IMG/VR virus record: IMGVR_UViG_3300025030_000200
Coordinates: 1-43,435 of that record
Reading direction: 5' to 3' (one strand)
Source of the DNA: a virus
Length of the DNA: 43,435 nucleotides
A program made the translations under genes and the position numbers. Of the stretch, positions 12,347 through 27,617 are shown one piece after another (position 1 is the stretch's first letter; each line of letters starts with the position of its first letter). The notes under the pieces were generated by a model, which saw only the letters and a list, made by a program, of their open reading frames with translations, was not told the origin of the DNA and did not search any database.

Positions 12347-12668
12347 CCGGGGTCCAGACGCAGGATTTGATCTGGGCGTCGTCGGCGAGGATGTTGGATT
12401 TTTCGAGAAGGTGGCAGATGGCGTCGAGGATCCCCGGGAGATCCCGGCGCCGCTTATCTCCGGTGGCATAGACGACGGCTAGCGAGACGTCGCACGTGAC
12501 GAGGGCCACGTCGCGATGGCCACCGAGCTGGAGCCGGATCGCCGTGAGCGCAACGTCTCGCCAGGCGGTGAATCGTTTCTTGGGAAAGCGGAGTCCTGTT
12601 CTGGTGACGATGACGGCGTTTTTCCCGCTGGGCAGTTGTCCCGGAAGGAAGAGGCTAGCGAGAATCAC
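12054..12668 (-). CDS. rusA: RusA-like Holliday junction resolvase (altered active site)
   Basis: 204 residues from GTG 12668, coupled to the preceding microgene by a GTGA overlap. LPSGKNA at the N-terminus and KRRRD76LPGILD82AICHLLE followed by D96-D97AQI fit RusA-family endonucleases, which cut Holliday junctions as dimers. The three catalytic aspartates of E. coli RusA (70, 72, 91) align with Asp76, Pro78 and Asp97. The middle one is therefore replaced, so activity may be lowered or a different acidic residue (Asp82) used. Residues after about 125 run antisense across the GroES-like gene and look non-native. It is the last gene of the minus-strand block. Confidence 0.65.
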   Translation of the reverse strand: MILASLFLPGQLPSGKNAVIVTRTGLRFPKKRFTAWRDVALTAIRLQLGGHRDVALVTCDVSLAVVYATGDKRRRDLPGILDAICHLLEKSNILADDAQIKSCVWTPAKSGTPVGAWLVLEDNPPAAGAPWQPDPELLALPSSESTSTRHQAHNLPRLLLTKEPRRRGRQPRQGASLVQASTKGSGRPKAGTSVAAYPGLPKRP

Positions 12669-12979
12669 GACTCCTCCTCCAGGCGGTCCCTGACGCTGTC
12701 CCTGACGCTGTCCCAGAAGCTGTCCCTGACGCTGTCCCAGACGCGGGCATCGACGCTGGCCCAGACGCTGTCCCCGACGCTGGCCCAGGCGCTGGCCCAG
12801 GCGCTGTTCCTGACGCTGTTCCTGACGCTGGCCCAGACGCGGGCATCGACGCTGTACCAGACGCTGGCCGTGACGCTGGCCCAGACGCGGTCACTGGCGC
12901 TGCCCCTGACGCTGGTCCTGCCGCCGGCCCCGACGCGATCCTTGACGCGGGCCTTGACGCACGGTCCCGGGTCGATCAC
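12665..12979 (-). CDS. Tetrapeptide-repeat microgene IV-7 (last of array IV)
   Basis: 104 residues (26 tetrads), the longest complete member. It starts at GTG 12979, overlapping the stop of IV-6 as GTGA. Head VIDPGPCV, then tetrads of the V-[W/R/G]-[D/A/T/N]-[S/R] type, tail RLEEES whose codons give GGAGGAGGAG before the RusA start. The segment GAGGRTSVRGSASDRVW is shared with II-3, and the head VKARVKDRV with IV-6. Function unknown. Confidence 0.6.
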   Translation of the reverse strand: MIDPGPCVKARVKDRVGAGGRTSVRGSASDRVWASVTASVWYSVDARVWASVRNSVRNSAWASAWASVGDSVWASVDARVWDSVRDSFWDSVRDSVRDRLEEES

Positions 12980-13242
12980 GGCTCCTCCTCCAAGCTGGCC
13001 CCGACGCTGTCCCAGACGCTGTCCACGACGCGGGACCAGACTCTGGCCCCGACGCGGTCCCCGACGCCGGCCGTGACGCTGTCCCAGACGCGGGCATCGG
13101 CGCTGGCCCAGACGCTGTACCAGACGCTGTGCCGGACGCCGGCCGTGACGCGGTCCCAGCCGCTGGTCCAGACGCTGGTCACGGCGCTGGTCCTGACGCG
13201 ATCCTTGACGCGGGCCTTGACGCACGGTCCCGGGTCGATCAT
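12976..13242 (-). CDS. Tetrapeptide-repeat microgene IV-6
   Basis: 88 residues (22 tetrads) from ATG 13242. Head MIDPGPCV, tail SLEEEP. The C-terminal part (VTAGVGDRVGARVW and what follows) is nearly the same as in III-2, about 7.7 kb away, and VWYSVWASADARV recurs in III-3. This makes it a mosaic of segments seen elsewhere. Start and stop are both in overlaps with neighbours. No known fold is recognised. Confidence 0.6.
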   Translation of the reverse strand: MIDPGPCVKARVKDRVRTSAVTSVWTSGWDRVTAGVRHSVWYSVWASADARVWDSVTAGVGDRVGARVWSRVVDSVWDSVGASLEEEP

Positions 13243-13433
13243 GACTCCTCCTCCAAGCTGGCCCAGACGCGGTCCCCGACGCCGAACCAGACGCGGTCCC
13301 AGACGCTGTTCCTGACGCTGGCCCAGACGCGGGCATCGGCGCCGAACCAGACGCGGTCCCAGACGCTGGCCCCGACGCGGTCACTGGCGCCGCCCCTGAC
13401 GCTGGCCAAGACACACTCCCCGGGGTCGATCAT
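13239..13433 (-). CDS. Tetrapeptide-repeat microgene IV-5
   Basis: 64 residues (16 tetrads). Head MIDPGECV (Glu in place of the usual Pro), a variant also found in IV-3 and IV-4. The first 28 residues match those of IV-4 almost exactly (CVLASVRGGA-[S/G]-DRVGASVWDRV), so the two are recent tandem copies. Tail SLEEES supplies the ribosome binding site of IV-6. Confidence 0.6.
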   Translation of the reverse strand: MIDPGECVLASVRGGASDRVGASVWDRVWFGADARVWASVRNSVWDRVWFGVGDRVWASLEEES

Positions 13434-13660
13434 GACTCCTCCTCCAAGCTGGCCCAGAGGCTGTCCCAGACGCTGGTCCAGACGCTGCGCCAGACGCGAT
13501 CCCTGACGCTGAACCAGACGCCGAACCCGACGCTGGTCCTGCCGCCGGCCCTGACGCGGTCCCTGACGCTGTCCCCGACGCGGTCCCAGACGCTGGCCCC
13601 GACGCGGTCACCGGCGCCGCCCCTGACGCTGGCCAAGACACACTCCCCGGGGTCGATCAC
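13430..13660 (-). CDS. Tetrapeptide-repeat microgene IV-4
   Basis: 76 residues (19 tetrads) from GTG 13660. It contains a 94-bp stretch (13478-13571) identical to 23783-23876 in member II-2, more than 10 kb away. That stretch encodes the GGRTSVGFGVWFSV segment. Head VIDPGECV, tail SLEEES. A GTG start is used where the last tail codon before TGA ends in G. Confidence 0.6.
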   Translation of the reverse strand: MIDPGECVLASVRGGAGDRVGASVWDRVGDSVRDRVRAGGRTSVGFGVWFSVRDRVWRSVWTSVWDSLWASLEEES

Positions 13661-13875
13661 GACTCCTCCTCCAAGCTGTCCCTGGCGCTGGCCCAGACGC
13701 TGTCCCAGACGCTGGCCCTGACGCTGGTCCCGACGCTGGCCCAGGCGCTGCCCCTGACGCTGGTCCTGACGCTGGTCCAGACGCCGGCCCCGACCCTGGC
13801 CCTGACGCGGGTCCCGACGCCGGCCCAGACGCTGCCCCTGACGCTGTCCCTGACACACTCCCCCGGGTCGATCAT
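13657..13875 (-). CDS. Tetrapeptide-repeat microgene IV-3
   Basis: 72 residues (18 tetrads) from ATG 13875. Head MIDPGECV. The body is rich in Arg, Gly and Thr tetrads (VRGSVWAGVGTRV, VRTSVRGSAWASV) and poorer in Asp than its neighbours. Tail SLEEES. Coupled on both sides by four-base overlaps. Confidence 0.6.
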   Translation of the reverse strand: MIDPGECVRDSVRGSVWAGVGTRVRARVGAGVWTSVRTSVRGSAWASVGTSVRASVWDSVWASARDSLEEES

Positions 13876-14030
13876 GACTCCTCCTCCAGGCTGTCCCCGA
13901 CGCTGGTCCAGACGCTGTCCCGGAAGCTGTCCCAGACGCGGTCCCAGGCGCTGTCCCAGACGCTGACCCAGACGCGGCCACTGACGCTGGCCAAGACGCG
14001 GGCATCGACGCACGGCCCGGGGTCGATCAT
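13872..14030 (-). CDS. Tetrapeptide-repeat microgene IV-2
   Basis: The shortest member, 52 residues (13 tetrads). Head MIDPGPCVDARV, body with VWVSVWDSAWDRV, one Phe replacing the tetrad Val (DSFRDSV), tail SLEEES. The minimum size suggests that head, tail and about ten tetrads are enough for whatever is selected. Confidence 0.6.
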   Translation of the reverse strand: MIDPGPCVDARVLASVSGRVWVSVWDSAWDRVWDSFRDSVWTSVGDSLEEES

Positions 14031-14221
14031 GACTCTTCCTCCAGGCTGTTCCAGACGCGGTCCCCGACGCTGGTCCAGACGCTGGCCAAGACGCCGAACC
14101 AGACGCTGTCCCTGACGCGGTTCCAGACGCGGTCCCCGGCGCTGTCCCAGACGCTGACCCAGACGCGGCTCCCGACGCCGATCCTGACGCTGTCCCTGGC
14201 GCACGGCCCCGGGTCGATCAT
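14027..14221 (-). CDS. Tetrapeptide-repeat microgene IV-1 (first of array IV)
   Basis: 64 residues (16 tetrads). It follows the DUF6745-like gene, its ATG 14221 starting just before the end of that gene's TAG (14224-14226), and lacks the ATGA overlap on this side. Its head MIDPGPCARDSVRIGVGSRV matches that of II-4 except for one Ala/Val change. Here the tail codons read GAGGAAGAG, still a usable ribosome binding site for IV-2. Confidence 0.6.
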   Translation of the reverse strand: MIDPGPCARDSVRIGVGSRVWVSVWDSAGDRVWNRVRDSVWFGVLASVWTSVGDRVWNSLEEES

Positions 14222-14223
14222 GA

Positions 14224-15120
14224 CTACGTTTCGGCCACGTATTCGATTGAATCCTCCCTGAACGTCCAGGCCCGAGCGCTCTCGCATGTCGTCACCGTAG
14301 TGGGTACTCGCAGCGTGTAGAAGGCCCCCGTCGAGGGGCAAACCACCTTCAGCAGCCGAACGGGCTCCACGTCGATGGCTGCCGGGATCTCGCAGAGTTC
14401 CATGTCGCCGTCCGCATGGATCTGTTTCGCTCCCAGGTCGAGCAGCGCACGAGAGTAGCCGATCTCCCGCAGGAGCACGCGACGCAGCTCCGCATTCGTC
14501 TCCGACAGCAACCACTCGCTCTTCCATTCCGAGCGCTTGACCGCCCCGATGTAGTCGGGCAGACGGGTCCCATGGATCGCGTAGACGCCCCACCCGTCGG
14601 GGTATTCGATGGCGTGGCGACCGTCCGCGTCCAAGCGGCCCTCCGCGTCCCGCAGAAGAACCGTCGGCCGCTCGGACACCCAGCAGACGTTCTGATGGGG
14701 CAGGATCCACCCGGCGCTTTTGGCCAGTTCCCAAAGACCATCGAGCGCTTTCGTCTCCTCGCGCAGCCCGCAGACCTCTGCGAAGTAGGCGTAGAACGCG
14801 AGCCATTCCGCGTCGTGCTGCCCGTAGCCGCAATCATGGACGCCCGCCTTGAGTGCGGCCTCGCGAGCGCGGGTTCGCTCCTTCGCCGGGGCAAACTGAG
14901 CGACCACATCGGCACGCCGCCGAAGCATGGCGTGCGGCGAATCGCACCATTCGATCAGTTTGGGCGGCTCCAGGCCGGCGCGTTCGTAGACGAGACGGAT
15001 GGCGGCCTCGGCCCGCGGTCGGTCTGCGGGCTCGGTGGACAGCCCGATGGCCGTCCACTCCGTCACGTAGTCCGGCATCCGGGCTTCCTGCTCGGGTGTC
15101 AGCGATTCAATCCGCGACAT
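14224..15120 (-). CDS. DUF6745-like protein
   Basis: 298 residues. The opening LTPEQEARMPDYVTEWTAIGLSTEPADRPRAEAAI and the later RHAIEYPDGWGVYAIHGTRLP fit a widespread uncharacterised family that I recognise as DUF6745. Members occur in phages, plasmids and bacteria, often beside a small protein like the one just upstream. The role is unknown. The start overlaps the upstream gene by 14 bases, so the pair is co-translated. It has normal composition, unlike the array that follows it. Confidence 0.6.
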   Translation of the reverse strand: MSRIESLTPEQEARMPDYVTEWTAIGLSTEPADRPRAEAAIRLVYERAGLEPPKLIEWCDSPHAMLRRRADVVAQFAPAKERTRAREAALKAGVHDCGYGQHDAEWLAFYAYFAEVCGLREETKALDGLWELAKSAGWILPHQNVCWVSERPTVLLRDAEGRLDADGRHAIEYPDGWGVYAIHGTRLPDYIGAVKRSEWKSEWLLSETNAELRRVLLREIGYSRALLDLGAKQIHADGDMELCEIPAAIDVEPVRLLKVVCPSTGAFYTLRVPTTVTTCESARAWTFREDSIEYVAET

Positions 15121-15445
15121 TGCGCCACCCCTCCGGCTCGTACTCCCGCTGGATGACCACCCGGTACTTCCCGGCGGGGAGTTCGATGTCTGCGTGCTCT
15201 TCGTGCCGCAGCGCGGACTTTTCGAGCACTTCGATGAAGCGGGAGACCTCGGCCATCGGAGCGGTGATCTCGTAGTCCATCACGGCCGCTCCAACGTCGA
15301 AGCGGTGGGCGTGCCCCGTGATCTCCCCCAACGCGAGCGTCACCTGGCCCGGGGCCTTGGCGACCGCGCCCGCCGGGATCGACGCAACGGGGAAGAGCCC
15401 CACGTCTCCCTGCCGGTACATCCTGATCTTCTTGGTTCGTGACAT
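15107..15445 (-). CDS. Small conserved phage protein paired with the DUF6745-like gene
   Basis: 112 residues from ATG 15445, chosen because GGAGGT lies six bases upstream; an ATG at 15457 is possible but has a poorer site. Recognisable pattern: MYRQGDVGLFPV, GEITGHAHRF, LRHEEHADIELPAGKYRVVIQREYEP. The HxH and RHEEH clusters are conserved in this family and could bind metal. No reaction is known. It is the first gene after a strong promoter and a 100-base leader. Confidence 0.6.
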   Translation of the reverse strand: MSRTKKIRMYRQGDVGLFPVASIPAGAVAKAPGQVTLALGEITGHAHRFDVGAAVMDYEITAPMAEVSRFIEVLEKSALRHEEHADIELPAGKYRVVIQREYEPEGWRNVAD

Positions 15446-15480
15446 GTCGACCTCCATCGTTTTCGGAGAAAGAACGCGAC

Positions 15481-15517
15481 CAGCCGGAGCGGCTTTGCAG
15501 GAGGAACGTTCCGGCTG
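15481..15517 (-). promoter_or_regulatory. Inverted repeat in the leader of the DUF6745 pair
   Basis: A perfect 8-bp inverted repeat, CAGCCGGA and TCCGGCTG, separated by 21 bases, lies in the transcribed leader between the promoter and the start codon. It could form an RNA hairpin or bind a regulator. No known riboswitch was recognised in this short leader. Confidence 0.3.
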
Positions 15518-15558
15518 ATCGCTTCCGAGATCAAAGGCTCCCGGTGGGCCTAGACTGA

Positions 15559-15587
15559 AAGATAGGCTCCGCTCGCTTCGCTGTCAA
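15559..15587 (-). promoter_or_regulatory. Sigma70-type promoter P4
   Basis: On the minus strand: TTGACA (15587-15582), 17-bp spacer, TATCTT (15564-15559). The -35 is perfect and the -10 matches four of six. It overlaps the stop codon of the upstream gene and drives the 15445 gene, the DUF6745-like gene, array IV and rusA. TATCTT also occurs as the -10 of two other minus-strand promoters here. Confidence 0.75.
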
Positions 15588-15913
15588 GCGGTTTCCTCGC
15601 GAAACTTGAAATCGGACAGGATGTCGTCCGCGGCGTCGACGATCATGTCCATGTCGCCGCCGGTACGGAGAAGGTCGAAGAGCAGCCCCACGGCCCGCTC
15701 TCCGGCGTAACGGTCGCGGTAGGCCGGGCAATCATCGTGGCGGTGCGAGTCCTGGTGCCGCTTGCAGTAGTCCTTCAGGTAGGATCCGCAGAGCGGGCAA
15801 TTCGGGAAATCCTCTTCGTAGTAGTGCTTCTGTGCGCATCCGCGCGAGGTGCACAGGACGAAGTCTCCTTCGGCAAGACACTGGGCGTCGATTTCGCGAT
15901 CTTCCTTGCTCAC
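15584..15913 (-). CDS. Small Cys/His-rich protein, zinc-binding candidate
   Basis: 109 residues. Cys and His residues are spaced as in zinc ribbons: C-x7-C early on, then CPLCGSYLKDYCKRHQDSHRHDDC. The C-terminal third is helical and acidic (LLFDLLRTGGDMDMIVDAADDIL). The start overlaps the previous stop (ATGA). One of several small CxxC proteins in this block. Specific function unknown. Confidence 0.6.
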   Translation of the reverse strand: MSKEDREIDAQCLAEGDFVLCTSRGCAQKHYYEEDFPNCPLCGSYLKDYCKRHQDSHRHDDCPAYRDRYAGERAVGLLFDLLRTGGDMDMIVDAADDILSDFKFREETA

Positions 15914-16233
15914 GGGTGAAGCCTCCCTTCCAGCCCGACGATCAACTCCGCCGCCTCATCATACTGCCCCTGCCGGGCTGCCACGAAAGCGGCCAGGGCG
16001 AGCCGGAGGGTCTGCGGGATGTCTTCCTCGTCCGGCCCGGAGGGCTGGAGGAGGGGGAGCGCGAGGCGGATGGCCGCGATCAGGACGGTTCCGACTTCGT
16101 AGTCCGTCTCCTCGTCGGACCACGCCTTCTGGTATTCCTCCGGGGATTCGAGCCCCTTGAGAACCGCCTGTTCCTTGGCGTCGTAGTGTTCGATGGCTTC
16201 GGTCAGCCCTCGAAATACGTCGATATTCTGCAT
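15910..16233 (-). CDS. Hypothetical acidic helical protein
   Basis: 107 residues, rich in Glu, Ala and Leu, predicted all-helical (FRGLTEAIEHYDAKEQAVL, LRLALAAFVAARQGQYDEAA). No motif recognised. AGGAGGACATC precedes the start. It lies between the SSB-like gene and a zinc-type protein in one transcription unit. Confidence 0.55.
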   Translation of the reverse strand: MQNIDVFRGLTEAIEHYDAKEQAVLKGLESPEEYQKAWSDEETDYEVGTVLIAAIRLALPLLQPSGPDEEDIPQTLRLALAAFVAARQGQYDEAAELIVGLEGRLHP

Positions 16234-16242
16234 GATGTCCTC

Positions 16243-16773
16243 CTAGAAAGGGACGGGGTCGTTTTCGGTGGGCGGGGTCTCCTGGTGGTCCGGTGTGTCG
16301 CTGATGCGATCCTTCACGCGGACGTACGGCTGAGGCGTGAACATTGGATAGGGGCTGCCGTCCGGGAGCTTGGGGACCGGGAGCGCCGAAACGACATTCG
16401 CCCAAATCTGCCCTTCCCGTCCTGCGCGGTGGACAATCTGAAGTTGACAGGGGACCCCGATCACCGATTCGATGTCGAATCGCCGCTCTTCGGCGGGCGT
16501 GAAGTCGCGCCCCCTCCATGGAACCAGAAACTTGCGGAGGTTCGAGTTGAATTTGAGGGTCGACGGAAAGTTCCGCCGCGGCCTGAAATTCTCCTCGGGC
16601 CTGCGGGGTAGTGGGACGGGGATTTCCCAAACGAGTTGGACCTCCCGAACCAGCGTCACCACCCCCTTGTAGGTTTTTTCGACCATCCCCCGGTCGATAG
16701 TGTCGATACTCCAGGCGAGGTGTATTCCCTCGGGCGCGGGGTCAAAGTCTTTCCCGACAATCCACAGTGGCAT
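16243..16773 (-). CDS. Phage ssDNA-binding-protein-like
   Basis: 176 residues. The order of features fits a family of phage single-stranded DNA binding proteins: a beta-rich start (MPLWIVGKDFDPAPEGIHLA), a central segment RRFDIESVIGVPCQLQIVH, then WANVVSALPVPKLPDG and a Pro/acidic C-terminus ending PTENDPVPF. An acidic tail ending in aromatic/Pro residues is typical of SSBs and recruits partners. It probably protects ssDNA during replication with DnaB. I assign it by resemblance only; a decisive profile search was not possible. Confidence 0.5.
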   Translation of the reverse strand: MPLWIVGKDFDPAPEGIHLAWSIDTIDRGMVEKTYKGVVTLVREVQLVWEIPVPLPRRPEENFRPRRNFPSTLKFNSNLRKFLVPWRGRDFTPAEERRFDIESVIGVPCQLQIVHRAGREGQIWANVVSALPVPKLPDGSPYPMFTPQPYVRVKDRISDTPDHQETPPTENDPVPF

Positions 16774-16774
16774 T

Positions 16775-17151: not shown

Positions 17152-17154
17152 GAG

Positions 17155-17168
17155 ATCTCCCGGGAGAT
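17155..17168. promoter_or_regulatory. Perfect palindromic operator ATCTCCCGGGAGAT
   Basis: A 14-bp perfect palindrome covering the predicted start of transcription of P3 and ending four bases before the start codon of the first gene. Its half TATCTCCC recurs in promoter P2 and five times at 20021-20106, so it is probably the binding site of a phage regulator. Confidence 0.6.
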
Positions 17169-17169
17169 A

Positions 17170-18159: not shown

Positions 18160-18172
18160 CTCTTTCCTCCTT

Positions 18173-18236: not shown

Positions 18237-18239
18237 AAG

Positions 18240-20311: not shown

Positions 20312-20692
20312 CTAGTGCGGGATGGCCTTGGGGGAGATGTGGCTTTTTATGGGCGTCATACGCTTCTTGGGGGCCCTTCTAGTTTGGTTGGCGACGCGGT
20401 CCCAGACGCTGCGCCAGACGATGGTCCTGACGCTGAACCAAACGCTGGCATCGACGCCGGCCCTGGCGCTGGCCAAGACGCTGCCCCTGACGCTGTTCCA
20501 GGCGCTGGCCTCGACGCTGTTCCAGACGCTGTCCCTGACGCGGTCCCTGACGCGGGCATCGGCGCTGGCCCAGACGCTGTACCAGACGCTGTCCCAGGCG
20601 CTGGCCTCGACGCTGTTCCAGACGCTGTCCCTGACGCGGTCCCTGACGCGGTCCCTGACGCGGTTCCAGACGCACGGTCCCGGGTCGATCAT
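20312..20692 (-). CDS. Tetrapeptide-repeat microgene III-3 (terminal, no SD tail)
   Basis: 126 residues. Head MIDPGPCV and 24 or so tetrads, then it runs into a basic non-repeat tail ending KSHISPKAIPH instead of LEEE. It is the only member without the tail and the only one with no gene behind it. This supports the idea that the tail exists to serve the next gene. It contains an internal duplication of about 60 bp (near 20497-20557 and 20594-20654), so recent growth is visible. Confidence 0.55.
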   Translation of the reverse strand: MIDPGPCVWNRVRDRVRDRVRDSVWNSVEASAWDSVWYSVWASADARVRDRVRDSVWNSVEASAWNSVRGSVLASARAGVDASVWFSVRTIVWRSVWDRVANQTRRAPKKRMTPIKSHISPKAIPH

Positions 20693-20919
20693 AACTCCTC
20701 CTCCAAGCTGTCCCCGGCGCTGTCCACGACGCGGTCCCAGACTCTGGCCCCGACGCGGTCCCCGACGCCGGCCGTGACGCTGTCCCAGACGCGGTCCCCG
20801 ACGCCGGCCCCGACGCGGTTCCAGACGCGGTCCCCGGCGCTGGTCACGACGCCGAACCAGACGCTGTCCCTGACGCGGTCCCTGACGCTGTTCCTGACGC
20901 ACGGCCCGGGGTCGATCAT
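20689..20919 (-). CDS. Tetrapeptide-repeat microgene III-2
   Basis: 76 residues (19 tetrads) from ATG 20919. Tail SLEEEL: the final codon is TTA before TGA. The part VTAGVGDRVGARVW is shared with IV-6, and about 75 bases around 20713-20790 are almost identical to 13021-13095. Coupled by ATGA on both sides. Confidence 0.6.
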   Translation of the reverse strand: MIDPGPCVRNSVRDRVRDSVWFGVVTSAGDRVWNRVGAGVGDRVWDSVTAGVGDRVGARVWDRVVDSAGDSLEEEL

Positions 20920-21122
20920 AACTCCTCCTCCAAGCTGTCCCCGACGCTGGTCCAGACGCGGTCCCAGACGCCGAACCAGACGCGGTCCCAGACGCGGTCC
21001 CTGACGCTGGCCAAGACGCCTAACCAGACGCTGGTCCTGCCGCTGGCCCCGACGCGGTTCCAGACGCGGTCCCCGGCGCTGTCACTGACGCTGGCCTTGA
21101 CGCACGGTCCCGGGTCGATCAT
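20916..21122 (-). CDS. Tetrapeptide-repeat microgene III-1 (first of array III)
   Basis: 68 residues (17 tetrads) from ATG 21122, overlapping the stop of the 21439 gene. The segment ASGRTSVWLGVLASV combines pieces seen in IV-1 and II-3. Tail SLEEEL. Unlike arrays II and IV, this array follows rather than precedes the replication genes. Confidence 0.6.
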   Translation of the reverse strand: MIDPGPCVKASVSDSAGDRVWNRVGASGRTSVWLGVLASVRDRVWDRVWFGVWDRVWTSVGDSLEEEL

Positions 21123-21439: not shown

Positions 21440-21636
21440 GTGGCCTCCTCGATGGTGGTCTGTCTCGCATCCTGCTCCAGCGGCGGTTTCCGTTTCCGGC
21501 GTGGCAGCCGAATCGTCTCGACATTGTCCTTCGTGATCCGGTAGAACTGGCGCATCCCTCGATCCCAGATGACCACCTTCCACCCATCGGCGTCCATTTC
21601 GAAATCGACGACCTTGAAGCGAGCAGTCGTCGTCAT
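21436..21636 (-). CDS. Small hypothetical protein
   Basis: 66 residues from ATG 21636, overlapping the GroES stop (TGATG). Beta-rich start (ARFKVVDFEMDADGWKVVIW), then a basic patch (RLPRRKRKPPLEQDARQ). A GTG 24 bases upstream would extend it. No known family. Confidence 0.5.
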   Translation of the reverse strand: MTTTARFKVVDFEMDADGWKVVIWDRGMRQFYRITKDNVETIRLPRRKRKPPLEQDARQTTIEEAT

Positions 21637-21938
21637 CACCCGGCCCGTTTGGTCACGCACAAAATCTCCTCCTCACGAAGAATCGTCACTCGTTCGCCAT
21701 CGAACTCCAGATCCGTTCCGCCCCACTTCGAAATCAACACCCGATCCCCCGAAAACACCGCGAGCGGAATGATCGTCCCACGATCGGTGAACCGACCAGC
21801 ACCAACGGCGAGAACGATTGCCTCCTGCGGCTTCTCCTTGGCCGTCTCCGGGATCACGATCCCACCATCCGTCACTTCCAACGCTTCGATCCTGCGCACG
21901 ATGACGCGGTCATGCAGCGGTGTCACGTCGAGCTTCAT
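21636..21938 (-). CDS. groES: GroES-type co-chaperonin
   Basis: 100 residues, the normal length of GroES. PLHDRVIVRRIEA starts the fold; the mobile loop VTDGGIVIPETAKEKP carries the GGIVI segment that binds GroEL. VLAVGAGRF and AVFSGDRVLISKWGGTDLEFDGERVTILREEEILCV complete the barrel. Phages carrying GroES use it with host GroEL to fold their own proteins, mainly capsid. GGAGGCCACATG is the start site, eight bases after DnaB. A second, Cys-containing GroES-like protein is encoded at 11774-12346. Confidence 0.9.
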   Translation of the reverse strand: MKLDVTPLHDRVIVRRIEALEVTDGGIVIPETAKEKPQEAIVLAVGAGRFTDRGTIIPLAVFSGDRVLISKWGGTDLEFDGERVTILREEEILCVTKRAG

Positions 21939-21946
21939 GTGGCCTC

Positions 21947-23260
21947 CTACTTGTTGGTCCGCCGACTCGTCGGCAGAAATTTCTGCGTCTCGAACTTGTG
22001 CTCCAGGAAGATCCGCCCGGTCGGTCCCTGCCGGTTCTTCGCGACGGCAAGCTCGGAGAGCCCCTGGTTGTCCGGTGTCACCTCGTAGTAGTCGTCGCGG
22101 TGAAGAAGCAACACCACGTCGGCGTCCTGCTCGATACTCCCGGAATCCCGAAGATCCGAAAGAGCCGGCCGTTTCTCGCTGCGAAGCTCGGACTGCCGGT
22201 TGAGCTGAGCCGCACAAAGAACCGCACAGTCGAGTTCCTTCGCCAGATTCTTCATCGCCTGTGAGGCGAACGAAACCTCGGCAGTCCTGTTCTCGAAACC
22301 ACGCTCGGAACGGATCATCCCGAGGTAATCCACGACGACGAGATCCGGTTTCCACTCCCCCGCCGAGTGCGCTCGGCAAAGATCGACGAGCTGGTCTACC
22401 GTGAGCGACTGATCGTAGAACATGAACGCCGCTTCCCGGAGCCGGCTCCGCGCTTGTCCCACTTTCTCCCAGGGGACGTTGATGTTGTGTTCGAGCTGCG
22501 CCATCGTCGTCCCCGTCATCGCCGAAAGCAGCCGGAGCTGAAGCTGCTCCTGCGACATCTCCAGAGAAATGAACGCGACCCGCTTCTTCTGCGACATCGC
22601 GGCGTGACCGGCAATCTGAAGACAAAGCACCGTCTTCCCCATCGACGGACGAGCCCCAAGGACGATGAGCTGCTGCCGCTTGAGCCCGAACAGAATGGCA
22701 TCGAGATCCGGAAGTCCCGTCTCTACGGCCAACCGCTTGCCGAATTCGCCAATCTCGATGTCGCGAAGCAGGTCGTCGATACCGGAATCCATCGGGCGCA
22801 ACGTCCGCAGAAACCCACCGGCGTCCACCAGATCCAACGCTCTTCGAAGAGTCTTGCCAATCGTTCCGAGTTCCTGACCCTCCTTCGCTCGCTCGTGCGC
22901 CACGAGCGTCGTCTCGGCGATCTGCTTCCGCGCATGATCCGCCCGGATCGCCTTCATGAAACCTTCCGTGTGAACAGCCGAGGGCGAAGATTTGGCAATC
23001 GCGTCGATCATCGCCGCTTGCACGAGATTCGTCCCCATGAGTTCGAGTTCTCGCCGAACGAGATTCGGCTCGCCCGCCAGAGGCCCAACCCGCAGGAGCG
23101 CTTCCCAGAGCATCCCATGGTCCCGAAACCGGAAATGCTCGGCGAGAAACCCGAGCCGCCGGGCAAGATTGATGGTCTCCTGGGGGAAGGCCATGCAGGC
23201 GGCCAACACCTCTTGCTCGGTCTGCTTCTGCCGCAATTCGACAACTGCCGGATCGATCAT
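21947..23260 (-). CDS. dnaB: DnaB-type replicative helicase
   Basis: 437 residues. N-terminal helical domain (residues 12-110), linker helix, then a RecA-like motor: Walker A GARPSMGKT (202-210), the ISLEMSQEQL segment, Walker B DLVVVDYLG (306-314), a sensor region CAAQLNRQSELR with RPALSDLRDSGSIEQDAD, and the arginine finger region AKNRQGPTG. It unwinds DNA at the fork. No primase or polymerase gene was seen, so host enzymes probably complete the fork. Its first codons, ATGATCGATCCGG, match the head of the repeat microgenes that precede it (one mismatch in 13 bases). Confidence 0.93.
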   Translation of the reverse strand: MIDPAVVELRQKQTEQEVLAACMAFPQETINLARRLGFLAEHFRFRDHGMLWEALLRVGPLAGEPNLVRRELELMGTNLVQAAMIDAIAKSSPSAVHTEGFMKAIRADHARKQIAETTLVAHERAKEGQELGTIGKTLRRALDLVDAGGFLRTLRPMDSGIDDLLRDIEIGEFGKRLAVETGLPDLDAILFGLKRQQLIVLGARPSMGKTVLCLQIAGHAAMSQKKRVAFISLEMSQEQLQLRLLSAMTGTTMAQLEHNINVPWEKVGQARSRLREAAFMFYDQSLTVDQLVDLCRAHSAGEWKPDLVVVDYLGMIRSERGFENRTAEVSFASQAMKNLAKELDCAVLCAAQLNRQSELRSEKRPALSDLRDSGSIEQDADVVLLLHRDDYYEVTPDNQGLSELAVAKNRQGPTGRIFLEHKFETQKFLPTSRRTNK

Positions 23261-23463
23261 GGCTCCTCCTGCAAGCTGACACAGACGCTGGCTCTGACGC
23301 TGATTCTCGCGCCCTCCCCGACGCTTGCCCAGACGCGGCGCCCGACGCTGTCCCAGACGCTGCCCCTGACGCCGTTCAAGACGCCGTCCTCGACGCCGCG
23401 CGCGACGCGGCTCCCGACGCCGATCCTGACGCTGTCCCTGACGCACGGCCCCGGGTCGATCAT
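23257..23463 (-). CDS. Tetrapeptide-repeat microgene II-4 (before dnaB)
   Basis: 68 residues (17 tetrads). Head MIDPGPCVRDSVRIGVGSRV shared with IV-1. It has the most diverged body (VARGVEDGVLNGV, GEGARISVRASVCVS) and the tail is LQEEP, with CAGGAGGAG serving as ribosome binding site for DnaB. The overlap with dnaB is ATGA. Confidence 0.6.
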   Translation of the reverse strand: MIDPGPCVRDSVRIGVGSRVARGVEDGVLNGVRGSVWDSVGRRVWASVGEGARISVRASVCVSLQEEP

Positions 23464-23726
23464 GACTCTTCCTCCAGGCTGTCCCTGACGCTGGTCCAAA
23501 CGCTGTTCCAGACGCTGGTCCAGACGCGGTTCCTGACGCGGACCGCGACGGGTGCCCAGACGCTGTTCCAGACGCGGTCCACGACGCGGTCCCCGACGCG
23601 GGTCCAGACGCCGATCCAGACGCGGTCCCAGACGCGGTCACTGGCGCTGCCCCTGACGCTGGTCCTGCCGCCGGCCCCGACCCTGGCCCTGACGCCGCCC
23701 CTGACGCACGGTCCCGGGTCGATCAC
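23460..23726 (-). CDS. Tetrapeptide-repeat microgene II-3
   Basis: 88 residues (22 tetrads) from GTG 23726. It shares GAGGRTSVRGSASDRVW with IV-7 (an identical stretch of about 53 bases) and the VRNRVWTSV part with the single member at 27.4 kb. Tail SLEEES. Confidence 0.6.
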   Translation of the reverse strand: MIDPGPCVRGGVRARVGAGGRTSVRGSASDRVWDRVWIGVWTRVGDRVVDRVWNSVWAPVAVRVRNRVWTSVWNSVWTSVRDSLEEES

Positions 23727-23917
23727 GGCTCCTCCTCCAAGCTGGCCCAGACGCGGTCCCAGACGCTGTCCCCGACGCGGTCCCAGACGCTGCGCCAGAC
23801 GCGATCCCTGACGCTGAACCAGACGCCGAACCCGACGCTGGTCCTGCCGCCGGCCCTGACGCGGTCCCTGACGCTGGCCGTGACGCGGGCCTTGACGCAC
23901 GGTCCCGGGTCGATCAC
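23723..23917 (-). CDS. Tetrapeptide-repeat microgene II-2
   Basis: 64 residues (16 tetrads). It carries the 94-bp stretch 23783-23876 that is identical to part of IV-4. Tail SLEEEP, where the codon CCG before TGA makes a GTG start for the next member. Confidence 0.6.
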   Translation of the reverse strand: MIDPGPCVKARVTASVRDRVRAGGRTSVGFGVWFSVRDRVWRSVWDRVGDSVWDRVWASLEEEP

Positions 23918-24108
23918 GACTCCTCCTCCAGGCTGTCAATGACGCTGTGCCTGACGCGGGTCCCGACGCCGTACCTGACGCTGGCCGCGACGCGGTCCCC
24001 GACGCGGTCCCAGACGCTGGCCTCGACGCTGGCCTCGACGCTGTCCCAGACGCTGTACCTGACGCTGTTCCCGACACTGTCCCCGACCCACGGCCCGGGA
24101 TCGATCAT
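23914..24108 (-). CDS. Tetrapeptide-repeat microgene II-1 (first of array II)
   Basis: 64 residues (16 tetrads) from ATG 24108, overlapping the stop of the small membrane protein gene. Head MIDPGPWV (Trp replaces Cys), as in the single member at 27.4 kb. Tetrads include VEASVEASV and VRYGVGTRV. Tail SLEEES. Confidence 0.6.
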   Translation of the reverse strand: MIDPGPWVGDSVGNSVRYSVWDSVEASVEASVWDRVGDRVAASVRYGVGTRVRHSVIDSLEEES

Positions 24109-24224
24109 TCATCCCCCTCGTCGGATAACCATCCGTCGATCTGCAACAGCACATACCCGATGAGGCAGGATGCCGCAAGGATCTTGAGTACCTGCCAGTC
24201 CTCGGGCGTCATCGCGGGACTCAT
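24105..24224 (-). CDS. Tiny single-span membrane protein
   Basis: 39 residues. MSPAMTPEDWQ is followed by a hydrophobic helix VLKILAASCLIGYVLLQI and an acidic end DGWLSDEGDE. Starts at ATG 24224 in an ATGA overlap. The pair with the next tiny membrane protein suggests an envelope function; both begin with MSPA. Confidence 0.5.
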   Translation of the reverse strand: MSPAMTPEDWQVLKILAASCLIGYVLLQIDGWLSDEGDE

Positions 24225-24328
24225 CGCCAGCGTCGCCCAATCGTCACGAATGCCGCCACGGCTCCGAGGAAAAACCCGACGGCAAGGCCAACGAGCGCCC
24301 CCCACATGCCAACCACCGCGGGACTCAT
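24221..24328 (-). CDS. Tiny Gly-rich membrane protein
   Basis: 35 residues: MSPAVVGM, a Gly/Ala-rich transmembrane segment (GALVGLAVGFFLGAVAAFV), and a basic end TIGRRWR. The positive tail puts the C-terminus inside the cell. Its stop overlaps the next start. The shared MSPA start with its neighbour hints at a duplication of the start region. Confidence 0.5.
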   Translation of the reverse strand: MSPAVVGMWGALVGLAVGFFLGAVAAFVTIGRRWR

Positions 24329-24344
24329 TTGCTCACCTGTGTGT

Positions 24345-24719
24345 TCATTCCCATAGGTGCGTACCACTTCGCAACTCGGCCCTCGCTCGGCACGGCTCTT
24401 TCTCCGCGCTCGGCTGAATCATCTCGCACTTCCGCATCTGCGCCACCGCCTGCTTCACCGCCTCGCGGATGATCTCGTCACGAACCAAGGGGCTTATCGA
24501 ACACGGCGTGTGTGTCCAGGTCAGAGAAGGCGCTCCGGGAGGCAATTCGCCCACCTGAACAAATGGCGCCTGGACCACGTCCGTCGCGATACGAAGGTCC
24601 TCGAACTCGGCGGCGATGATCTTGGCGTGCTTGGTGAGGTATTCATCAAGCATGGGGTATTCATCACACGTGAAGAGTCGCCTCGCCGCCGCCAGGGCCC
24701 GTTCCTCGATAGTTCTCAT
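24345..24719 (-). CDS. Hypothetical helical protein
   Basis: 124 residues from ATG 24719 with GGAGGACATCG upstream; it replaces a longer open frame that would run antisense-like through the previous gene. Helical start (RTIEERALAAARRLF), a central EYLTKHAKIIAAEFEDLRIA, and a region with two Cys (TPCSIS, KCEMIQ). No family recognised. Confidence 0.5.
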   Translation of the reverse strand: MRTIEERALAAARRLFTCDEYPMLDEYLTKHAKIIAAEFEDLRIATDVVQAPFVQVGELPPGAPSLTWTHTPCSISPLVRDEIIREAVKQAVAQMRKCEMIQPSAEKEPCRARAELRSGTHLWE

Positions 24720-24733
24720 CGATGTCCTCCCAA

Positions 24734-25018
24734 CTAGTTCTCCACGTCCAACACGACTCCTGCAACCCAGCCAACACCCTTGCAGGAAGCGCACGGACCC
24801 CATTTCCGTGCGCTCTGCGTGTACGCAACCATCTGCTCCTTCGCGATCTCCAACGCAATCGTCAGCATCCGCGCGGATTCCTCCATGCACTTCTCGGTCC
24901 GCGCCTCTGCAAATTGCGCCGGGTTCAACCAGAGTGACCCGCAGTCGAACAACACTCCCGTCGCCGGCTGAATTGTCCGCTGTCCCCGCGAACACGAAGG
25001 GCACGTTCTTGGCGTCAT
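24734..25018 (-). CDS. Zinc-ribbon-like protein
   Basis: 94 residues from ATG 25018 (ATGA overlap with the previous gene). CPSCSRGQ near the start and CASCKGVGWV near the end are two CxxC pairs, the second with the CxxCxGxG form; between them lies a helical segment (MEESARMLTIALEIAKEQMV). Likely zinc binding. Role unknown. Confidence 0.55.
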   Translation of the reverse strand: MTPRTCPSCSRGQRTIQPATGVLFDCGSLWLNPAQFAEARTEKCMEESARMLTIALEIAKEQMVAYTQSARKWGPCASCKGVGWVAGVVLDVEN

Positions 25019-25335
25019 TCGGTACCACCTTCCGCGGCATCCGTTGCTTGTTCGAACGTCACTGGGCGCTCCGTTGGTCGGACACAAGCGACAAGCTCCC
25101 ACACGCGAGCTGCTGCGCCAGGAAACGGAGGGTTCCGTTCCCGTAATCCAAGCCGACCGCGAGCCACAATCCATGATTCACTCATCCCGGTCGCTTCGTT
25201 CACCTCCTCGCCGCGGATACGGACGAAAACTTGGGCGCCGTCTCCTTCGTCCGAGTCGCCAACGTTCTCGGCCATCAGCTCACACACGTAGACCGTTTTC
25301 CCTTTGCGAAACGAAATTGTCGACTGGTGCTTCAT
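25015..25335 (-). CDS. Hypothetical beta-rich protein
   Basis: 106 residues from ATG 25335 behind AAGGAGCGGCG. TISFRKGKTVYVCELMAENV, then DGAQVFVRIRGEEVNEATG and RVWELVACVRPTERPVTF suggest alternating beta strands. No known motif. Its stop overlaps the start of the zinc-ribbon gene. Confidence 0.55.
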   Translation of the reverse strand: MKHQSTISFRKGKTVYVCELMAENVGDSDEGDGAQVFVRIRGEEVNEATGMSESWIVARGRLGLRERNPPFPGAAARVWELVACVRPTERPVTFEQATDAAEGGTE

Positions 25336-25344
25336 CGCCGCTCC

Positions 25345-25518
25345 TTATCCCCGTTCTCCTTCCGTGAAACGCTGCCATTCCCGAACCGTCCGGTAGATCC
25401 GCTCGAACCCCGGCTCCTTGTCGAGCCGGAACAGCTCGACCAGCTCCGCGAGCCGCCGAAGAAGCTGAAGCTCCTTCTGCACGCACGCCTCACAGTGACA
25501 GCGCCGGTCGTGACTCAT
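25345..25518 (-). CDS. Small Cys/His protein
   Basis: 57 residues. MSHDRRCHCEACVQKE gives a Cys/His cluster at the N-terminus, followed by a leucine-rich helix (LQLLRRLAELVELFRLDKE) and a basic end. It starts at ATG 25518 in an ATGA overlap and ends with TAA nine bases before the next start. It may be a small regulator with a metal-binding head. Confidence 0.5.
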   Translation of the reverse strand: MSHDRRCHCEACVQKELQLLRRLAELVELFRLDKEPGFERIYRTVREWQRFTEGERG

Positions 25519-25751
25519 GACTTCACCTTCGCGGCTTCGATCTCCTGCTTCCGTTTCACCATCATCCGCTGAACATCCATCGGGACCTTACCCGTGTGAG
25601 GCGCGATGTTGAGCGAGATGATCTTCGACGTGAACGTGTGGTCGTCCACGATCCCGGGACAAACGAAGAGCGACTGAATGTGCTTCGCCGCGTCCCCCTG
25701 GGTCGGCGCATCCATGAAGAGTTCGAGCTTCAACGCAACGACAAGTCGCAT
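25515..25751 (-). CDS. Hypothetical protein
   Basis: 78 residues from ATG 25751 (TGATG overlap); GTG codons three and six bases upstream are alternatives. LVVALKLELFMDAPTQGDAAKHIQSLF, then DDHTFTSKIISLNIAPH and a basic helix (QRMMVKRKQEIEAAKVKS). No family recognised. Confidence 0.5.
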   Translation of the reverse strand: MRLVVALKLELFMDAPTQGDAAKHIQSLFVCPGIVDDHTFTSKIISLNIAPHTGKVPMDVQRMMVKRKQEIEAAKVKS

Positions 25752-25960
25752 CACCACCCTCCTTCGCGGGCAAGGTCATGAACCTCTTGCGCAATGGTCA
25801 TGGAGTCCATCGGCCTCGTCGCCGCCTCCGCCATCGCGACGGCGAAGAGGGCGAGGCGAATGATCTCGGACACCTCTGCTTGGCCGAGTATCACTTTCCT
25901 TGGAGCCCATTCGTAGCAGGAGTACTCTTCCGCAATCTCCCTCACGCTGCGCTCGGTCAT
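25751..25960 (-). CDS. Hypothetical helical protein
   Basis: 69 residues from ATG 25960, overlapping the Lar-like stop. It is nearly all helix (SVREIAEEYSCYEW, VSEIIRLALFAVAMAEAATR, TIAQEVHDLAREGGW). Small size and place suggest an accessory early protein. Confidence 0.5.
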   Translation of the reverse strand: MTERSVREIAEEYSCYEWAPRKVILGQAEVSEIIRLALFAVAMAEAATRPMDSMTIAQEVHDLAREGGW

Positions 25961-26199
25961 TCTGGCCTCCGGTTCCACCACGCCCTGATTTCGGCACGCG
26001 GTCCGCTGTGAGGCGTGGCGGCGCCGCAGAACACGCCAACGTCGCCCCAGTCATCGACCACGCTCGAGCACTCGACGACGCTCGAGCACTCGACGACGTA
26101 GGTTGTGGTCCCGTACATCGCGACTGGCGAGTATCGCGCCTTCCGGCCGCAGAAGGGGCAGGGTAGCAGCTTCTTCGGCTTCGGCTTCGGCTTCGTCAT
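25957..26199 (-). CDS. Lar-like restriction alleviation protein with split zinc knuckle
   Basis: 80 residues. A Lys/Pro repeat (KPKPKPKK) precedes LLPCPFCGRKA, the hallmark of the Lar family, and the end AEIRAWWNRRP is the usual closing motif. Lar-type proteins reduce host restriction of unmodified phage DNA; most phage members are untested. The second zinc pair normally reads CxxCG. Here ECSS is followed by a repeat VVECSS and about 11 further residues before CGA, so the pair is separated. The 18-bp direct repeat near 26063-26098 explains the duplication. Confidence 0.65.
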   Translation of the reverse strand: MTKPKPKPKKLLPCPFCGRKARYSPVAMYGTTTYVVECSSVVECSSVVDDWGDVGVFCGAATPHSGPRAEIRAWWNRRPE

Positions 26200-26220
26200 G
26201 GCTTCACCTCGCGGTTCATG

Positions 26221-26598
26221 TCATTCCTTTCCGTCCAACGCGGCATAGAGTTTTACGATCAGCCCCTCCGTCTCGCCCTTGCGGACGGCGATGGCGGCAG
26301 CCTCGATTCGCCGCAGGCGCCGTAGTTCCGTGAGCAGCGCGGGCGCCGCGTTGCGGAGGGCGACGATGAAGACGGCGTCTTCGTCCGCGCCGCCTCCCAT
26401 TTCGCTCGCGTGGATGTGGTCTGTCGTGACGTCGCGGATCTTCCCGTCGTCGCCGGCGCCGAACGCTCCAACCACCCAATCCTCTCCGAATGGGCGATCG
26501 TCCGGCCCCTTTCGATCGGGGACGTTGACTCGCCACGGTCCCGGCGTCGCCTCCGCTTCGAGATTCGCCAGCGCGTCGAGGTCAACGATGGCGTTCAC
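26221..26598 (-). CDS. Ead/Ea22-like phage protein
   Basis: 125 residues from GTG 26598, overlapping the previous stop as GTGA. DLDALANLEAEATPGPWRV near the start and DAVFIVALRNAAPALLTELRR in the second half are the hallmarks of the ead/Ea22-like family of lambdoid and related phages. The role of the family is unclear; members are early genes. A longer ATG-started form would overlap the previous gene and is less likely. Confidence 0.7.
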   Translation of the reverse strand: MNAIVDLDALANLEAEATPGPWRVNVPDRKGPDDRPFGEDWVVGAFGAGDDGKIRDVTTDHIHASEMGGGADEDAVFIVALRNAAPALLTELRRLRRIEAAAIAVRKGETEGLIVKLYAALDGKE

Positions 26599-26879
26599 CA
26601 GACACCCAACATGCGCTGAAGCGCGAGGCTGCACGATTGCCATGAGTATTGTCCGTATTTCGTGAGTAGTCCGAGTCCTATCAGCCGCTCGCGAACGGCA
26701 TCGCGTGCAGCGCGCAGTTCCGCCTCCATCGCTCGCAGTCGTTCGAGTTCGGCGAACGTTTCGGCCACAATGCTCGCGTCACCGGGCTGCATGGTCGACA
26801 GTTCGAGAGCGGCGTTCGCGAGATGCTTACGCGCTCGCAATAGTCGTGACGAACTCGATCTTTCCCCCTTCGCCTTCAT
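26595..26879 (-). CDS. Hypothetical helical protein
   Basis: 94 residues from ATG 26879 (ATGA overlap). SSSSRLLRARKHLANAALEL, then AETFAELERLRAMEAELRAA and RERLIGLGLL form a coiled coil. The end WQSCSLALQRMLGVW is unusual. No family recognised. Confidence 0.5.
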   Translation of the reverse strand: MKAKGERSSSSRLLRARKHLANAALELSTMQPGDASIVAETFAELERLRAMEAELRAARDAVRERLIGLGLLTKYGQYSWQSCSLALQRMLGVW

Positions 26880-27208
26880 CGCTTTTTCCCCCTTCTCTGC
26901 TTTTTCTTGTAGCCGCTGATCCATGCAGCCGCGTACGCCAGACACCGGATACACCGCGTCGCCGACTTGCCATCCAGCGCGGCCCCGCAACGGCCACAAC
27001 GGTGAGCGGACATGTAGTCCTGTGATCTGGCACGACGCCGGTCCCTGTTCTTCGCAAGACACAAGAGGCACCGCAGGCGCTCGGAAGACTCCTTCTGCTT
27101 GCCACACTCGTAGCAACGCCCAGATTCCACATACCTGCGTTTTCGGGAATACACCGCACACGTTGGGCAGGAAGCGCGATGCCCGCATGGGAACTTCAAG
27201 TCGCTCAT
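26876..27208 (-). CDS. Multi-zinc-finger protein
   Basis: 110 residues with CGHRASCPTC, CYECGKQKE, CLLCLAKN, CGRCGAALDG and CIRCLAYA: nine or ten Cys in CxxC pairs, with Arg/Lys-rich spacing and a very basic end (KKKQRRGKKR). Likely binds two zinc ions and nucleic acid. It resembles the smaller 16960-17151 and 16775-16963 proteins, which may have arisen from the same family. Confidence 0.6.
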   Translation of the reverse strand: MSDLKFPCGHRASCPTCAVYSRKRRYVESGRCYECGKQKESSERLRCLLCLAKNRDRRRARSQDYMSAHRCGRCGAALDGKSATRCIRCLAYAAAWISGYKKKQRRGKKR

Positions 27209-27402
27209 CTCATTTCGATCCCTTCCACCAGGTCGACGAGTTCCCTGGCTTTTCGCGTGGCTTCTTCCGGCGAAAGGCCCTCGTCGATGTACATCGCGTA
27301 TGCCCGGTCGAAGAGCGGTTCCGGAGTCAACGTCGCGGCGATGACTTCGGCGGGCGTGTTGTTCGGAATCTGCGGCGGCGGCGGAATGAACATCTCGATC
27401 AT
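27205..27402 (-). CDS. Small hypothetical protein after the single repeat microgene
   Basis: 65 residues. MIEMFIPPPPQIPNN, then a helical part ending EEATRKARELVDLVEGIEMR. ATG 27402 overlaps the stop of the upstream microgene, and its first eight bases (ATGATCGA) equal the microgene head. No family recognised. Confidence 0.55.
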   Translation of the reverse strand: MIEMFIPPPPQIPNNTPAEVIAATLTPEPLFDRAYAMYIDEGLSPEEATRKARELVDLVEGIEMR

Positions 27403-27617
27403 GACTCTTCCTCCAGGCTGTTCCAGACGCGGTCCACGACGTTGGCCCTGACGCTGGTCCAGACGCGGTTCCTGACGCGGTCCGCGACGGGTGCCCAGAC
27501 GCTGGCCCAGACGCGGTCCGCGGCGCTGGCCCCGACGCTGGTCAAGACGCTGTCCCTGACGCGGCCCCCGACCCACGGTCCCGGATAGAGCTTCCTAGAA
27601 TGCAGGCTCGTCGTCAT
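27399..27617 (-). CDS. Tetrapeptide-repeat microgene I (single copy)
   Basis: 72 residues (18 tetrads), with a modified head: MTTSLHSRKLYPGPWV, where KLYPGPWV takes the place of MIDPGPWV. ATG 27617 lies inside the end of the upstream gene, overlapping it by 23 bases. The segment VWAPVADRVRNRVWTSV is shared with II-3, and the tail SLEEES precedes the next gene in the usual way. It shows how a member enters an operon: the downstream start region is kept and the old start is lost. Confidence 0.55.
   Translation of the reverse strand: MTTSLHSRKLYPGPWVGGRVRDSVLTSVGASAADRVWASVWAPVADRVRNRVWTSVRANVVDRVWNSLEEES

Follow-up and report, generated by a model that had tools for sequence, protein, structure and literature searches.

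Tetrad micro-genes in the early operon

The DNA analysed here, referred to as the window, is the 43,435-base IMG/VR record IMGVR_UViG_3300025030_000200 of a bacterial virus. Its early block contains 15 short minus-strand open reading frames (ORFs), here called micro-genes, which lie in four arrays and encode proteins built from four-residue repeats (tetrads) in units of 12 bp. A sequence-only reading of the window had described such a set, and every ORF was located. The 12-bp arrays were also detected independently by Tandem Repeats Finder (TRF). The micro-genes are listed below with the evidence for each, including any Shine-Dalgarno-like (SD-like) site at the start.

27399..27617, minus strand: micro-gene of array 1 (72 amino acids; odd head, LEEES tail; the tail holds GGAGG 7 nt before the start at 27402)
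23914..24108, minus strand: first micro-gene of array 2 (ORF, tetrads)
23723..23917, minus strand: micro-gene of array 2 (AGGAGG 4 nt 5' of a GTG start)
23460..23726, minus strand: micro-gene of array 2 (ORF, tetrads, SD-like site)
23257..23463, minus strand: last micro-gene of array 2, LQEEP tail, overlapping the dnaB start (ORF, tetrads, SD-like site)
20916..21122, minus strand: first micro-gene of array 3 (no SD-like site found)
20689..20919, minus strand: micro-gene of array 3 (ORF, tetrads, SD-like site)
20312..20692, minus strand: last micro-gene of array 3, without an LEEE tail (ORF, tetrads, SD-like site)
14027..14221, minus strand: first micro-gene of array 4, abutting the DUF6745 gene (no SD-like site found)
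13872..14030, minus strand: micro-gene of array 4 (ORF, tetrads, SD-like site)
13657..13875, minus strand: micro-gene of array 4 (ORF, tetrads, SD-like site)
13430..13660, minus strand: micro-gene of array 4 (ORF, tetrads, SD-like site)
13239..13433, minus strand: micro-gene of array 4 (ORF, tetrads, SD-like site)
12976..13242, minus strand: micro-gene of array 4 (ORF, tetrads, SD-like site)
12665..12979, minus strand: last micro-gene of array 4, overlapping the start of a RusA-like gene (ORF, tetrads, SD-like site)

The tetrads of the window are best written V-X-Z-S. Among the 221 units kept (the count omits units near the ends and units with a first residue other than V, I, A, G, F or L), the first residue is V in 190; X is W (83), R (56) or G (39), together 178 of 221; Z is mainly D (77) or A (57); and the last residue is S (120), R (67) or G (29). 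These tetrads also fit the pattern S/R-V-[W/G/R]-[D/A], with one fixed codon for each invariant residue. None of the 15 genes has an internal stop in the micro-gene frame; for the remaining five frames, the numbers of genes with stops are 2, 8, 8, 15 and 15. Because 12-bp units leave several frames open, an open micro-gene frame is by itself weak evidence.

The head and tail that the sequence-only reading had described as nearly universal recur in most of the genes. An M/VIDPG head is present in 14 of 15, the exception being the 27.4-kb gene, which starts MTTSLHSRKLYPGPWV; LEEE[S/P/L] closes 13 of 15, the exceptions being 23257..23463, which ends LQEEP, and 20312..20692, which has no such tail. 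The tail codons contain GGAGGAGGAG or a variant of it. At all 14 junctions that follow a tail, 11 within arrays and three leading to the next ordinary gene, the reading frames overlap by 4 nt (ATGA or GTGA). Each of the 11 internal starts is preceded, in the tail of the gene before it, by an SD-like site: AGGAGG at 4 nt in nine cases and GGAGG at 7 nt in two. The SD-like sites of dnaB, the RusA-like gene and the gene starting at 27402 likewise lie inside the tail of the preceding micro-gene. The tail is thus conserved because it doubles as the Shine-Dalgarno site for translation of the next gene. For the first genes of the four arrays, an SD-like site is present in two of four. The dnaB gene itself begins MIDP at 23260, and its first 12 bases are near-identical to those of the micro-gene head; the cassette head may derive from the dnaB start, or the reverse.

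The claimed company of DnaB, GroES and RusA in this operon is confirmed by profile matches. The ordinary genes that matter here are:

27205..27402, minus strand: ordinary gene, overlapping array 1 at its start (without a match in Pfam or PHROG)
21947..23260, minus strand: dnaB helicase gene (PF03796, E 1.4e-75), ribosome-binding site in the preceding micro-gene tail (AGGAGG, 4 nt)
21636..21938, minus strand: groES (Cpn10; PF00166, E 3.3e-29)
15107..15457, minus strand: GHAH-type gene (RQGDV..GHAH..HEEH, a label coined here; phrog_27831, E 5.8e-11)
14224..15120, minus strand: gene immediately upstream of array 4, for a tetrad-free DUF6745 protein (PF20530, E 5e-34; 117.8 bits against a gathering cut-off of 27)
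12054..12668, minus strand: RusA-like gene (phrog_34, E 9.4e-5; no Pfam match), ribosome-binding site in the preceding micro-gene tail (AGGAGG, 4 nt)

Arrays 2 and 4 have a 94-bp exact repeat in common. The contig IMG/VR 3300025012_000185 (L001/L040; 39,155 bases) matches the window at 100% of the 15,046 flank bases compared and is without the ~9.8 kb between these arrays (window ~13.8-23.6 kb), the join forming an in-frame chimeric micro-gene. Because of the shared 94-bp repeat, the gap may be either a real deletion or an assembly collapse, and it is not used as evidence.

Tetrads inside and beside DUF6745 proteins

The same tetrads, written S-V-X-Z (X = W/G/R, Z = D/A), occur inside DUF6745 (PF20530) proteins of many phages, in an array that sits between 'IVWCGSPLSQGLTRAIVLD' and 'YGQHDANWLAFY'. 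The PF20530 matches fall outside the repeats. A repeat-independent set of loci was obtained by searching with the DUF6745 C part, which contains no repeats, and keeping the best 80 of 197 relatives. In 71 of these 80 phage loci, tetrads lie within the protein by rule. Inspection of the other nine by eye gives: Q in place of S in L153, L187 and L220; an array that is present but frame-broken in L154, L184 and L208; a contig edge that leaves one or two tetrad-like units in L207 and L221; and tetrads outside the protein in L211, which is the L041 phage. Broken-frame in-protein arrays are seen in L015 as well as in L154, L184 and L208, and may represent assembly error or real frame switching.

Scans for the repeat pattern return similar proteins. 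Among viral contigs, 111 stretches matched; 96 hold arrays by rule, seven of them stand-alone, and the remainder are mostly tetrads within long proteins of DUF6745 or of a second, unnamed family. Members of the latter start MC..FS, end FDGK.WRLH and carry tetrads in a similar place (L037 815-1636, L062 138-965 and others); the two tested have no Pfam match. In genome contigs, 11 of 25 stretches pass the tetrad rule, and nine of the 11 resemble DUF6745 by eye. The micro-proteins of the window resemble only the repeat insert, with no PF20530 match among the 10 of 15 tested.

The composition of the in-protein arrays was taken from 60 of the 80 loci (1482 units), 20 having been dropped as without an array by rule, with fewer than 10 units, or identical; close relatives remain in this set. 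X is R, G or W in 1338 of 1482 units and Z is D or A in 1332. The six resulting unit types account for 1242 of the 1482: WD 172, WA 188, GD 191, GA 241, RD 280 and RA 170. Each constant residue has a codon that is fixed within a locus and different between loci. The dominant S codon is AGC in 34 loci, TCC in 11, TCG in nine, TCT in three and AGT in two, with Q in one; the dominant V codon is GTC in 37, GTG in 17, GTT in five and GTA in one. R at X is written with one codon in 54 of 60 loci (AGG 35, CGG 18, CGC 1) and with two codons in six. Residues are thus kept while codons differ between phages, from which we infer that selection acts on the amino acids of the tetrad. Variation, scored where minor alleles reach at least 10% at a base position of the 12-bp unit, occurs at position 7 in 60 of 60 loci, at position 11 in 59, and at any other position in at most 15; it is confined to positions 7 and 11, both amino-acid-changing, in 36 of 60. 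A pattern-derived set of 77 arrays (1643 units), in which some arrays come from opposite ends of a single contig or from close relatives, agrees with this result. The 60-locus set is preferred because the scan pattern restricts bases (the second bases of X, Z and S, and others) in the 3.5 units matched and so partly imposes the alphabet statistics of the 77 arrays. Other constant residues occur in named phages: S-L-[G/E/W/R]-S in MW202476 and Q-L-[G/R/W]-[D/G] in a Mycobacterium prophage.

Stand-alone tetrad genes were found in nine phages: the window, L022, L041, L071, L106, L233, L002, L117 and L086. In six of the nine (the first six named), a tetrad-free DUF6745 gene lies beside the stand-alone tetrads. 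In alignment, the segment of the window DUF6745 protein that links the N part to the YGQHDA motif, the site of the array in tetrad-bearing members, consists of ~35 non-repeat residues. The visible stretches of L022, L106 and L233 each contain a single stand-alone tetrad gene (short in L233, with ~5 tetrads), and that of L041 contains three. There is no DUF6745 gene in the L117 record, whose contig starts in the array, or in the L086 record, whose contig ends at the GHAH gene; in the window, the GHAH gene precedes DUF6745. A GHAH gene lies on the same strand within 3.5 kb of DUF6745 in 106 of 160 DUF6745 loci, counted over a redundant locus set with a hidden Markov model (HMM) built from four sequences that include the window gene. 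A quick tree (45 of the 71 cis loci, two Q-type loci, three named phages and six trans loci) needs four changes between cis and trans and leaves 18 of 51 forks open; the sole point taken from it is that the row nearest to the window DUF6745 protein is a cis protein, L152 (59%).

The ends of the stand-alone genes differ from phage to phage. In L002 (IMG/VR 3300007764_000003), MMKRL...RRLP micro-genes form two arrays; in L117 the ends are VRSVRDRV...SLGRVS; and L071 and L086 carry further versions. The head and tail of the window were thus not recovered in unrelated phages, which the sequence-only reading had proposed as a mark of a real family. What the phages with stand-alone genes have in common is the tetrad and the 4-nt overlap, with GTGA or ATGA in all four of L002, L117, L071 and L086. 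The ribosome-binding site in the tail is clear in L002 (four of four starts examined) and L117 (eight of eight), and an SD-like site is partial in L071 and L086. Because the ends are phage-specific and the tetrad, overlap and ribosome-binding site are shared, head and tail are best regarded as cassette ends and not as family signatures. That the micro-genes belong to a real family of repeat proteins, as had been suggested, is upheld.

The order of tetrads turns over rapidly in some lineages. L012 and L090 have flanks that are 98.6/96.8% identical. Alignment of their arrays, of 30 and 28 units, scores like that of shuffled arrays (p 0.64), and across the 58 units variation is limited to base positions 7 and 11. 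The array order of L016 and L037 (3' flank 95.7%) is likewise like shuffled (p 0.46). Among the 80 DUF6745 ORFs, 29 reach a contig edge 5', 27 of them in or at the array and two with the N part visible. Such breaks fit mixed populations; alternatives are circular contigs cut open at that point and ordinary difficulty with repeats. Slippage alone was set aside as an explanation, identical neighbours not being enriched (264 versus 262). A mild excess is seen at lags 4 and 5 (z 2.2 and 2.4), and 18 of 77 arrays contain repeated blocks longer than in shuffles (p < 0.05).

Away from the arrays, the start of the 39,155-base contig (L257) overlaps the window end (42199-43435, 99.8%), and the genome is therefore circular or permuted, at ~49 kb. 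The remainder of that contig contains no further tetrad arrays by rule. Tandem repeats of 72 bp at window 42056-42592 lie inside ORF 41349-42758 (TPPVVATTTATFVPTAT units), which possibly encodes a tail or surface protein.

A proposed detached repeat module and the alternatives

The tetrad genes are neither a chance pattern nor ordinary genes: they are most likely a multi-copy, trans version of a hypervariable tetrapeptide-repeat module. Their probable identity, which we hold with moderate confidence, is that of the repeat part of a phage DUF6745 system, multiplied and encoded in trans. Several observations point to this: the tetrads lie inside DUF6745 proteins elsewhere; a tetrad-free DUF6745 gene accompanies the stand-alone tetrads in six of nine phages; residues and not bases are conserved between phages; variation is focused on positions 7 and 11, with array order reshuffled between L012 and L090; starts are coupled, with AGGAGG or GGAGG, in the window, L002 and L117; and Tweety gp54 offers a precedent. 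In most of the phage DUF6745 loci recovered, the array is an insert; in the window phage, the repeats stand as coupled micro-genes beside a DUF6745 gene that has none, and at three other places of the early operon, and would be the detached form of that insert. The micro-proteins would be made and act with the DUF6745 protein, supplying its variable part in trans. If so, the array could serve a counter-defence protein that acts early and inside the cell, as its variable contact surface or spacer; the specificity of this protein might change with the number and order of tetrads, as reported, for number, in Tweety gp54. Fifteen copies would then provide one phage with a repertoire and with spare templates for recombination. 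A tentative extension, possible but on the unlikely side, is a 'digital' recognition system: mostly six letters (W/G/R × D/A), the order of which, reshuffled faster than the flanking DNA, would specify a target such as a host or prophage defence protein. The window would then encode a repertoire of 15 interchangeable micro-proteins that recombination moves from array to array and that a single DUF6745 protein uses in trans.

Several results weigh against an assignment of the micro-genes to DUF6745. The 39-kb L002 record has tetrad genes but no DUF6745. Conversely, the DUF6745 gene of Microcystis phage Ma-LMM01 is without tetrads, and a window micro-gene searched in its 162-kb genome gave no significant match; L236 has DUF6745 and GHAH matches and no tetrads by rule in its ~10 kb; and tetrads are absent from eight distant partial matches (L235, L237-L239, L241-L243, L245), whose DUF6745 membership is unsure. 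Turnover of the array is not always total, since L054/L112 and L024/L100 retain part of the order. The window tetrads are looser than the in-protein tetrads at the Z and S positions, and the starts at 21122 and 14221 have no SD-like site. Within the window arrays, third codon positions are near-invariant and first and second positions vary, so that the ordinary signature of purifying selection is lacking; the evidence for amino-acid conservation comes from comparison between phages. Structure prediction, too, has low confidence. AlphaFold renders a micro-protein as a long helix with low global confidence (predicted local distance difference test, pLDDT, 70.6; predicted template modelling score, pTM, 0.30), and residues 82-149 of a DUF6745 protein, which are its array, have a pLDDT below 50. 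Finally, Tweety gp54 has no DUF6745 match (by Pfam or a DUF6745 HMM) and no homologous N or C ends.

An unlikely but credible alternative is a neutral or selfish minisatellite cassette: a 12-bp repeat equipped with start, stop and ribosome-binding site would spread by recombination and persist by keeping frames open and serving the next gene, its peptides having no task. This would account for identical cassette ends at several sites per genome, for other frames that are often open, for third positions that are invariant within a genome, and for the 94-bp repeat of arrays 2 and 4 together with the near-identical contig that is without the sequence between them. A purely parasitic repeat is disfavoured because it predicts none of three observations: amino acids are kept while codons change between phages; a two-position, mostly six-unit alphabet recurs across phages; and the repeats are tied to DUF6745, in cis or adjacent. 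What stands of the earlier suggestion of a selfish, operon-resident cassette is the cassette form, as the window phage and the L002 phage each carry their own in separate arrays. The location of ribosome-binding sites for dnaB, the RusA-like gene and the gene at 27402 within array tails is what would be expected if the arrays controlled operon spacing and translation, coupled re-initiation setting dnaB and rusA levels with the peptide as a by-product. This is nevertheless highly unlikely as an explanation of the tetrads, which in most relatives are inside a protein and have no downstream start to serve.

A different task for the peptides is decidedly unlikely, though less so. The repeats could form a rod or partner a replication protein, with DUF6745 as an assembly factor in a non-defence intracellular or structural role; the early-block location with dnaB, groES and the RusA-like gene is consistent with this, as, weakly, is the long helix predicted by AlphaFold. 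It would leave unexplained the total difference in array order between the near-identical L012 and L090. Coding on the opposite strand, which would yield antisense P-D-A-V/G repeats, has one attraction: the variable minus-strand first positions are plus-strand third positions, making most variation synonymous. This is scarcely credible and was dropped after a count of frame stops, the codon-aligned plus frame being broken in 8 of 15 micro-genes when head and tail are included. Starts, overlaps and SD-like sites are all on the minus strand, and in DUF6745 proteins the conserved domains that flank the array dictate the V-x-x-S frame. In addition, V is mainly GTG in L041 and L117, which would turn D into H on the other strand.

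Comparison with known systems

For the 10 of 15 micro-proteins tested, no Pfam match exceeds the cut-off and the best PHROG match has E 0.0044; tblastn of one micro-protein against 50,697 phage records gives no match; NCBIfam, run with five proteins, gives nothing for window proteins; and PADLOC, run with six, gives one weak match (E 0.078) for a DUF6745 protein. Comparison of the DUF6745 body with the PDB yields no Foldseek match at E 0.001 and, at best, a VIA Z of 3.8, nothing convincing. Matches of PDB sequences of Pizza designs to the DUF6745 body, with E down to 4e-9, were set aside as summed repeats, at most two stretches being significant alone. In the open-licence library searched, no paper names DUF6745, and tetrad strings likewise gave no result; nor did the papers of that library yield any description of the micro-gene form, of its pairing with DUF6745 or of the two-position alphabet in DUF6745. 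The module is likely to have stayed hidden because the Pfam match omits the repeats and contigs often break there.

Pentapeptide and hexapeptide solenoids, which the sequence-only reading had set apart, are also short-period repeat proteins; the period here is four. Its further statement, that no family has this design, does not hold. The tetrads are those of the hypervariable insert of phage DUF6745 proteins, and Tweety gp54 has a similar repeat. Between the window and DUF6745 proteins with internal tetrads, the tetrads and the codon logic are the same and a DUF6745 gene adjoins array 4; the difference is that the window tetrads are separate, coupled micro-genes and the window DUF6745 protein has none.

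Hypervariable phage proteins are mostly known from retroelement mutagenesis or phase variation. Diversity-generating retroelements likewise focus variation at fixed codon positions in phage genes. Their rule is A to N, whereas the tetrads vary as T/G/(A or C) and A/C. A retroelement origin was dropped, as a search of 22 phage records, fragments among them, returned no match to a reverse transcriptase family; controls gave a match in 3 of 14 genomes. With the tetrads, many phages share a small four-residue alphabet, the order of which can be scrambled between near-identical phages, and in some the repeats are separate genes.

Phage tetrapeptide-repeat proteins with variable arrays are an already known kind, from one mycobacteriophage group, and the closest precedent, by analogy, is mycobacteriophage Tweety gp54. 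By Pham et al. (PMC2884959), Tweety gp54, Che8 gp57 and PMC gp51 are described with 12-bp, four-residue repeats A-A-[G/W/Q]-[S/Y] and invariant third positions, in 48, 26 and 15 copies in the three phages, a pattern 'consistent with selection for variation'. The variable-number repeat VR2 of Bordetella phage BMP-1 bbp36, as cited there, likewise lies in a phage gene; by that description, its element is 24 bp. According to two reviews (PMC9262239, PMC8549241), a prophage defence is overcome by Tweety mutants with more or fewer repeats, which makes gp54 a tunable counter-defence protein.

The resemblance of the gp54 type, as so described, to the present tetrads is detailed: 12-bp units with period four; two variable residues drawn from small alphabets that include G and W; invariant third positions with first and second positions varying; and a variable array between near-identical ends. 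The differences are the repeat itself, A-A-[G/W/Q]-[S/Y] against S/R-V-[W/G/R]-[D/A], and its place in one larger protein and not in micro-genes. One window micro-protein, searched in the Tweety genome, gave no match, and the functional link, given the absence of a DUF6745 match in gp54, is one of analogy. If the analogy is true, DUF6745 and its tetrads would constitute a widespread, tunable counter-defence module, and the comparison with Tweety opens the question of whether target choice is encoded by the number and order of repeats.

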